Below are positions 43,160 to 48,163 of a stretch of DNA of 64,000 bases, piece by piece. Origin of the DNA: an uncultured Clostridia bacterium (lineage in GTDB: Bacteria; Bacillota; Clostridia; Christensenellales; Aristaeellaceae); the NCBI GenBank assembly GCA_947165425.1, contig CAMVAJ010000005.1, positions 1 to 64,000 of the forward strand. Direction: 5' to 3'. A model generated the notes under the pieces. That model worked only from the letters and a program-made list of their open reading frames with translations, was not told the origin of the DNA and did not search any database. Made by a program: the position numbers and the translations under genes. Numbering within the stretch: the stretch's first letter is position 1; each line of letters opens with the position of its first letter.

Positions 43160-46100
43160 ATGGCAGACCAGGATAAAATGAAAGAGCGCCATGATGCCCC
43201 AGAAAAATCCCTTGTGGATAAGGTGATCGATTTAGCCCTCGGCGCGGGCGGCGGCGCGGTGACGCTGCTCTCCGGCCTGCTGGCCGCGGTGCTGATCCTC
43301 TATTCCGGCTATGTGCTCTACGACACCTTCGCCACCGAGCGGGCCGCCTCCTCCAACGCCTGGGATCTTTTGCAGTTCAAGCCCGAGATCTTCGACGACT
43401 ACGAGACGCCCCTCTCCGGCTCCGAGCTGTCGGATATCAACCGCGACTACCGCTGCTGGCTGACGGTCTACGGCACCGCCATCGACTATCCCGTCGTCCA
43501 GGGCCCCAACGACACGTACTACGCCGCCGTGGATATCTACGGCCGCCCCAGCCTGACCGGCGCGATCTATCTCGCCGCCGGCAACAGCGCGGATCTCTCC
43601 GACTCCTACAACGTCATCTACGGCCACCACATGGACAGCGGCGCGATGTTCGGCGGGCTCGATCGCATGACCGGCAATGAGACCGGCGTGATCATCGCCC
43701 CGGACGCCATCTACGACGTGCAGTTCTTCGCCAGGATCGACACGGACGCCTACGAGAGCCGCATCTACAGCGTCGGCAACCGCAAGGACGACGTCCTCGC
43801 CTTCCTCCGCTCCGGCGGCGCGGGCGGCGTCGGCCTCGGCACAGAGGTCCGCTATTTCGACGAGGAGGCGGCCGCCGACGCCACGAAGCTCGTGGCCCTC
43901 TCCACCTGCGCCAACGCCAACACCAGCGGGCGCCTTGTCGTCATCGGCAAGATGACCAAGCGCATCGTGATGAAGGATGTCACCGTCTCCAAGGTCTGGG
44001 ACGACGCCGAAAACCAGGACGGCCTGCGGCCCTCCTCCGTCATCGTCGTCGCCAGCGACGGCACCGAGGCGACCCTCACGGCAGAGGACAACTGGACCGC
44101 CACCGTCTCCGTCCGCAAGTTCGACGACCTGGGCGAGATCCAGTATACCTGGACCGAGAAGAAGCGCGTCGAAGGCTATGAGATGGTCTCCAGCGTGACC
44201 AAGGGCGACAATACCGTCATCACCAACCGGCACATCCCCGCCGTCACAGATCTCACCATCCGGAAGGCATGGGACGACGGCGGAAACCGCGACGCTCTCC
44301 GCACCGACGCCGTGACGGTTCGCCTCTCCGACGGCCACACCGCGACGCTGAGCGCGGCCAACAATTGGTCCGCCACCTTCGAGAACCTGCCCGTCTTCGC
44401 GGACGGTCAGAGGATCGCCTACACCTGGACGGAGGAGAACGTCCCCGCCGGGTACACCCCGAGCTATGCAGCCAACGGCGACACCACGACCCTCACCAAC
44501 ACCCATACGCCCGAGACCGTCTCGCTCACGGTCGCCAAGCTATGGGAGGACAACGCCGACCAGGATGGCCTCCGCCCGGAGCGCCTCGAGGTCTCCCTCT
44601 ACGGCAACGGCACGCTTGTCGGCTCCGTGATGCTGGAGGAGTCGAACAACTGGAGCGGCACGATCCCCGGCCTCTATGTCTTTGAGAAGGGCCAGCGCAT
44701 CGCCTATGAATGGCGCGAGGCCTCGGTCCCCGGCTACACCCTGACCACCGCCACAAACGGCTCCGAGACCATCCTCACGAACACCCATGTGCCTCTGACC
44801 CGGGACCTCACCGTTTCCAAGGTCTGGGACGACAACAACAATCAGGACGGCATCCGGCCCCACCGCCTGCGCGTGACACTGAGCAACGGCCGCAGCGTCA
44901 TGCTCTCTGACGCCGAGGGCTGGACCGCCACGATCCCCGACATGCCGGTCTACGCCGCCGGTGAGCCGATCGCCTACAGCTGGACCGAGGACGACGTCAA
45001 CGGCTATGAGCTGGACGGCACCGTCGTCAACGGCGACACCACCACCCTGACCAACCGCCACGAGACGGACACCACCGTCGCCACGGTCACCAAGGTCTGG
45101 GAGGACGACGCCAACCGGGACGGTCTGCGGCCCGCCTCCGTCATTGCGACGCTGAGCAATGGCCAGACCGTCACCCTCAGCGAAGAGAACGGCTGGACAG
45201 CCATCATCACAGGCCTGCCCGCCTACCAAAATGGCGAGCGGATCGTCTACACCTGGGCCGAGCAGGATGTCCCCGCCGGCTACACCGCCACCCAGCAAGT
45301 CAGCGGCAGCGCCACCGAGCTGATCAACACCCACGCCATCGAAACCATCTCCCTGACCGTTCAGAAGGTCTGGGAGGACGCAAACAATCAGGACGGCATC
45401 CGCCCGGACGAGGTCGCGGTGACCCTGCTCAAGGATGGCGAACCCCTGCGCTCCCTCACCCTGGACAAGGCGTCCGGCTGGACCGCCACGGTCCCGGATC
45501 TCCCGGTGAACGAGGATGGCAAAGCCATCGATTACACCTGGACGGAGGAGAACGTCCCCGCCGGCTATACGCTGCATGTGAACAAGGAGAACGCCTCCTC
45601 AACGATCCTCACCAACACCCACGCGCCGGCCACCACCGCGCTGACCATCCGCAAGGTGTGGGAGGACGACAACAACCGCGACGGCCTCCGGCCCGACTCC
45701 GTCACCGCCAAGCTGTCCGACGGTCAAACCGTCACCCTGAGCGAAGCCAACCACTGGACGGCGACCCTTGAGAATCTGCCCGTCTACGCGGGCGGCAAGC
45801 CCATCGTCTACACCTGGACGGAGGAGAACGTCCCAGAGGGGTATTCCTTCTCCACCTCCCCCGCGCCGGACAATGACTTGGTCACCATCCTCACCAACGC
45901 CCACGAACCCGCCACCACCTCCCAGACGGTTCAGAAGATCTGGGATGACGGCGACAACCGCGACCGTCTCCGCCCGACCACGCTGCGCGTGCGTCTCCTG
46001 GCGGACGGAGCCGTCCAGCAAGAGCTGACGCTGAACAGCGTCAACGGCTGGTCCGCCACCGTGTCCGATCTCCCCGTGAACAACGGCGGACAGCCCATCG

Positions 46101-48163: not shown

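Follow-up and report, generated by a model that had tools for sequence, protein, structure and literature searches.

The window analysed here, 64,000 nucleotides of DNA from an uncultured Clostridia bacterium of the family Aristaeellaceae (GenBank assembly GCA_947165425.1, contig CAMVAJ010000005.1, positions 1 to 64,000), carries a pilus operon in which the sortase gene continues into a long array of Cna_B domains (Table 1). The open reading frame (ORF) at 43160–48163 on the plus strand is single and intact, running from ATG to TAA without an internal stop over 1667 residues, and is followed directly by a gene for an OppA/AppA-like solute-binding protein (SBP). The initial annotation, made by a model from the letters of the sequence, had described this ORF as a class B-type sortase fused to 14 Cna_B repeats, and Pfam matches, the reading frame and recurrence across independent assemblies all bear this description out. 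The source is a metagenome-assembled genome in 126 contigs, so a chimeric contig or misassembled repeats had to be considered, but the Cna_B repeats share at most 71% identity at the DNA level and contain no exact internal repeat beyond 32 bp, a divergence large enough to exclude repeat collapse, and the same fusion recurs in many independent assemblies. An artefact was rejected on these grounds, its probability being negligible, and no frameshift or assembly join, of the kind that the initial annotation had warned of, separates the sortase from the repeats.

Table 1. Genes and protein features of the pilus operon in the window.
Feature	Coordinates	Strand	Remarks and basis
Secreted acidic protein; possible further component	32397..33599	+	C-terminal segment conserved, heading several such loci
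Large probable tip adhesin	33674..40387	+	Flg_new repeats, DUF7601, SpaA; VAPTS sorting-like motif and transmembrane (TM) segment
Probable backbone pilin	40752..42137	+	ISPTGV sorting motif, then TM segment and basic end; orthologues in relatives
SipA-like signal-peptidase homologue	42241..43074	+	Catalytic Ser replaced by Asp, Lys by Cys; Pfam, alignment
Whole fused ORF	43160..48163	+	N-terminal TM segment, class-B-type pilus sortase, 14 Cna_B, MucBP-like domain, GDCLE tail; 1667 residues
Hydrophobic membrane segment	43244..43321	+	About residues 29–54; hydropathy, AlphaFold2 (AF2)
Sortase domain	43463..43954	+	Residues 102–265, H156/C250/R258; Pfam, alignment, fold (3psq/4y4q)
Array of 14 Cna_B	43970..47869	+	About residues 271–1570; each with Lys/Glu/Asn isopeptide set
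MucBP-like domain	47900..48061	+	Under the Pfam cut-off in the window copy
C-terminal tail	48095..48160	+	IEEPETPLGLGQVFINIGDCLE, stop codon directly after
Partner gene, OppA/AppA-like family-5 SBP	48274..50190	+	Pfam, pairing, fold

The sortase domain matches the Pfam Sortase family (PF04203) with 27.5 bits against a cut-off of 26.6, and the NCBIfam class B model TIGR03064 with 92.4 bits (E 2.6e-26), which does not reach the equivalog cut-off of 153.75, so that it is assigned as class-B-type by its fold and nearest relatives only. The closest solved structures in phmmer and Foldseek searches are 3psq (Spy0129) and 4y4q (S. pneumoniae pilus SrtB), both class B pilus sortases. The AF2 model of residues 1–460 consists of a confident sortase followed by Cna_B1 and Cna_B2, with a mean predicted local distance difference test score (pLDDT) of 85.9 and a strand gap of about 3 residues between the sortase and the first Cna_B; Foldseek on the AF2 model places the Cna B repeats of 1d2p first, and finds 3psq with E 9e-14 and 4y4q with E 3e-13. 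In agreement with the initial annotation, the expected sortase His, Cys and Arg are present as H156, C250 and R258, and they are unchanged across an alignment with 22 relatives. Hydropathy analysis detects one hydrophobic segment in the ORF, at the N-terminus (about residues 25–58), which AF2 draws as a single long helix of residues 18–73, and none at the C-terminus, where an LPXTG-like motif followed by a TM segment and a basic tail was not found. We infer an N-in topology, as had been proposed earlier.

Pfam Cna_B matches the ORF in 14 stretches (771 bits in total, E 3.5e-238), and 14 of 14 modules have the three residues claimed for them, Lys (in xKVW), Glu (in YxWxE) and Asn (in TN or IN), each module probably being locked by an intramolecular Lys–Asn isopeptide bond. 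The MucBP-like end proposed for the protein stands as a resemblance: the window copy scores 14.3 bits, below the Pfam cut-off of 23, and the homologous segment at locus L102 attains the cut-off with 24.9 bits.

By its gene content, the locus is an FCT-like (class B/SipA) pilus operon. The gene order adhesin–pilin–SipA–sortase–SBP is repeated in loci L025, L061 and L103 and partly in L023, L024 and L026. The catalytic Ser/Lys dyad of the SipA homologue is not retained together in any of 18 SipA-like relatives in the alignment, and the window protein is predicted to be inactive as a signal peptidase. SipA of group A Streptococcus (GAS) likewise lacks the dyad, with Asp48 and Gly85 at these positions (PMC4049620), and is essential for class B pili. 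Since the operon is FCT-like with a predicted inactive SipA homologue, the fused enzyme is almost certainly a pilus polymerase. A separate LPXTG basal pilin (FctB) gene was not found between the sortase and SBP genes in the window, and a scan by consensus only detected no terminator-like site between the ORF and the following gene, the first on the plus strand being at 50732.

The sortase/Cna_B fusions form one clade with support of 99/97, comprising about a dozen related species with 1 to 21 Cna_B domains: 21 in L103, 14 in L025, 11 in L024, 10 in L061, 3 in L105, 2 in L027 and 1 each in L028 and L106, with at least 8 and 9 in L059 and L060, both of which are interrupted by contig ends. The sister sortases of this clade (L029, L031) differ in their spacers (MBG_2, Flg_new) and end in a membrane domain. 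An MBG_2 spacer is common to L106 and L029, the tail of L106 standing where L029 has the membrane domain. The C-terminal domain of the L029, L031, L032 and L033 sortases is multi-pass (FILTEDMRLPM..DKWTPLM), and therefore both ends of these enzymes would sit in the membrane.

More distant sortases (L034, L035) are unfused, and the protein encoded next is of the Cna_B or MucBP type and bears an LPXTG-like signal. A second sortase clade of the same bacterial family (L099–L102, L109) is unfused, each sortase gene being followed immediately 3' by one for a protein with the tail of the window ORF, so that the single gene of the fused lineage has a pair of adjacent genes as its counterpart there. 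The post-sortase proteins of L099 and L101 are FctB-like (PF12892; PDB 8k6t, FctB3, and 3klq), and that of L102 is composed of an FctA domain, two Cna_B, MucBP and the tail, PF12892 also being matched. FctB is the base of GAS pili, stops polymerisation and is anchored to the wall by SrtA (PMC7900414). Because the unfused relatives encode the base protein as a separate gene after the sortase, the fusion probably unites a polymerase with a base/anchor module. The unfused sortase of genome G018 at L100:9469-10308 has a tail-like end of its own, ...AGECLE-stop, though a separate tail protein comes next, and this end may be either a coincidence or the remnant of an old fusion. Other sortase fusions exist in the same bacterial family: in L062 (G026) and L064 (G025) one ORF encodes a sortase domain followed by a Peptidase_C39-like domain (under the cut-off in L064), and in L065:7370-9448 DUF11/CARDB-type Ig domains precede the sortase. 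With such cases at hand, the joining of a sortase to other domains is in itself less surprising.

In place of LPXTG, the window ORF ends in PLGLGQVFINIGDCLE directly before the stop codon, the longer end segment being ...EEPETPLGLGQVFINIGDCLE-stop. The tail follows the pattern PLGxG..N.GDC(L/F)E-COOH, with a broader form PLGxG...N.G[DEVI][CT]xE-COOH. The strict DNA pattern N-x-G-D-C-(L/F)-E-stop occurs in 32 of 201 genomes of the bacterial family, with 0 matches for the reversed control; among 393 genomes from elsewhere in the class it has a single match, dismissed as chance owing to an in-frame stop codon inside it. The proteins that bear the tail are otherwise unrelated (Cna_B, FctA/FctB, DUF7601, Flg_new, MBG, Big_2), some being large and adhesin-like, and the complete ones checked by hydropathy carry a single signal at the N-terminus and lack a TM segment at the C-terminus. 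The tail is conserved at the protein level despite many synonymous changes, and it occupies the place of the LPXTG signal (L034, L035) or the C-terminal membrane domain (L029–L033) of relatives. One variant tail/SBP pair (GECFE) lies in a different family of the same order, at L193 (G069). The L193 tail, EVPLAAPAAALGNQVGECFE, is reminiscent of the PLA..PKTGD stretch in LPXTG-type signals, and it may be speculated that the tail descended from a degenerate sorting signal.

The downstream protein belongs to SBP_bac_5 (Pfam) and has the fold of AppA/OppA peptide-binding proteins (Foldseek). A relative of this SBP lies directly downstream in 30 of 30 tail loci examined, the tail genes having been found without reference to the SBP. 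In the reverse direction, a tail gene precedes 79 of 82 different SBPs of the window type, plain homologues from outside the family being excluded (75 identified by script and 4 by visual inspection of neighbouring loci); of the other three, one abuts a contig edge and two lack a preceding tail gene. Ordinary SBP homologues outside the family (L194–L198) have no tail gene in front. All 32 strict-tail genomes fall within the 98 SBP-positive genomes of the 201 (co-occurrence P = 4.7e-12), and the tail variants (GDC, GEC, GVC/GIC, GET/GEA) track the SBP tree with 13 changes, compared with at least 28 (mean 33.7) in shuffles. The window genome, G000, contains three tail-protein/SBP pairs with the tails GDCLE, GEAIE and GDCFD; two of the pairs, at C30:6437-8335(-) and C14:34435-36555(-), are not part of the pilus operon. 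No ABC (ATP-binding cassette) permease or ATPase genes are present among the six genes downstream of the SBP or in the pilus operon upstream. The window SBP has no lipobox; other SBP_bac_5 genes of G000 that were checked (L210, L211, L215, L216) equally lack one, which is unusual for a Gram-positive lineage, and the idea that tail-linked SBPs are special as non-lipoproteins was dropped.

The tail and the SBP are very likely linked in function. Since a peptide-binding fold is encoded next to the tail gene, the SBP would be the natural receptor of the tail, and the tail would act as a C-terminal surface signal peculiar to the family, with the SBP serving it; direct binding between them stands at about even chances. 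The simplest role for the tail would be to anchor or cap at the surface, because it stands where relatives have LPXTG or a membrane domain. These observations lead to a hypothesis, evenly balanced in our judgement, of a surface-attachment or display system in which a tail without LPXTG or TM helix is recognised by a dedicated secreted OppA-like protein, the sortase–Cna_B protein being one client and the pilus machine being held to the cell at both ends.

Several observations weigh against these interpretations of the tail and of the fusion. Tracking of the SBP tree by the tail could reflect mere co-inheritance of adjacent genes. In an AF2 model of a read-through tail–linker–SBP chain, the tail is disordered (pLDDT about 28–30), but the construct blocks the free carboxylate and so speaks neither for nor against binding. 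Lacking a membrane anchor, the SBP offers no evident means of holding a partner. The tail Cys is replaced by Thr, Ser or Ala in 12 of 76 tails, which also weakens the notion of an essential cysteine for a disulfide or lipidation. As for the base module, PF12892 (FctA/FctB) is absent from the fused ORF in Pfam searches, which leaves it without a recognisable counterpart of the acceptor-lysine part found in base pilins. The failure of AF2 to dock tail and SBP with the carboxylate blocked, the free exchange of bodies ahead of the tail and the sequence-only nature of the pairing would also suit a conserved genome location, in which surface genes are exchanged in front of a fixed 3' end and the two proteins are not partners. 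This is improbable, because the tail is kept as a protein through many synonymous changes, the SBP clades differ in tail class, and every tail gene found independently of the SBP had an SBP downstream.

The best overall explanation, which we hold with middling confidence, is a single chain that combines the polymerase of an FCT-like pilus operon with the stalk/anchor portion of the pilus base. The built-in scaffold on an enzyme, raised in the initial annotation, is supported. The class-B-type sortase would be held on the outer face of the membrane by its N-terminal TM segment and, aided by the inactive SipA homologue, would link the ISPTG pilin and the VAPTS adhesin. The last sortase strand would continue directly into the rod of 14 Cna_B domains, which at about 4 nm per domain would be roughly 55–60 nm long, enough to span the wall, and would terminate in the MucBP-like domain and the tail. 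The OppA-like protein encoded by the adjacent gene would recognise the tail, so that the distal end of the stalk is fixed or capped at the cell surface.

A different use of the stalk would make the enzyme its own substrate, the sortase Cys handing the pilus to a Lys in its own Cna_B stalk, so that the enzyme is consumed by turning into the covalent base. Fused operons contain no separate base-pilin gene, unfused relatives do have separate base proteins, and the base pilin FctB terminates polymerisation in GAS (PMC7900414), all of which agree with such a role. Nevertheless, it is rather unlikely, since the stalk has neither a PF12892 base-pilin domain nor an identified acceptor lysine, the gap of about 3 residues in the AF2 model may keep Cna_B1 from the active site, and a single-turnover enzyme is expensive. 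The long C-terminal part could also be an adhesin that is incidentally in the same chain as the sortase, because adhesins often contain Cna_B and MucBP domains, the Cna_B count differs from 1 to 21 between species and the tail is also found on large adhesin-like proteins. This enzyme–adhesin hybrid, another suggestion of the initial annotation, found no direct support: Cna_B arrays mostly serve as stalks, no ligand-binding domain was found in the ORF, the operon already encodes an adhesin of 2237 residues, and the homologous separate protein of relatives resembles a base pilin. We consider it improbable, more so than self-attachment of the pilus.

Beside this machinery, the secreted protein encoded at the head of the operon is possibly a wall-binding component. 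Its C-terminal segment recurs heading loci L061, L112 and L115, and the gene at that place in L114 has SH3_3 domains.

In class B pilus systems, the need for SipA and the formation of the base are still open questions (PMC7900414). A natural fusion of polymerase and base-like stalk would provide direct evidence on which parts cooperate and would place pilus anchoring within a single chain. If the tail/SBP attachment is true, it would add to LPXTG sorting, SLH, CWB2 and C-terminal membrane domains a further route in a common group of bacteria from gut and rumen, and a peptide tag that comes with a dedicated binding protein would be a potentially useful tool.

The pilus operon and each domain are of known kinds, and the sortase–Cna_B fusion itself was not found described: the open-access papers searched yielded nothing relevant on such a fusion or on a GDCFE tail, and no characterised sortase bearing a Cna_B array is known to us. 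The tail/SBP pair may be a new kind of surface signal. The window enzyme shares the sortase fold, the His/Cys/Arg residues and the N-terminal TM segment with Spy0129/SrtC1 of the S. pyogenes FCT region and SrtB of the S. pneumoniae type II pilus; the operons of both likewise comprise pilin, adhesin and inactive SipA (PMC3019223, PMC4049620). Spy0129/SrtC1 and SrtB are compact, however, whereas the window enzyme extends into 14 Cna_B, the MucBP-like domain and the tail. The post-sortase gene of unfused relatives encodes an FctA/FctB-type domain, as in FctB, the basal pilin of GAS FCT-2/3/4, but FctB is a separate protein with LPXTG for SrtA, whereas the window counterpart is fused to the sortase, lacks PF12892 and ends in the tail. 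The S. aureus Cna stalk (1d2p) has the same Cna_B fold and Lys/Glu/Asn residues; Cna is an LPXTG-anchored adhesin, whereas the Cna_B domains in the window belong to an enzyme. The window SBP has the fold of B. subtilis AppA and L. lactis OppA, but these proteins feed an ABC transporter, whereas the window SBP has no transporter gene among the neighbours checked and is paired with tail-bearing surface proteins.
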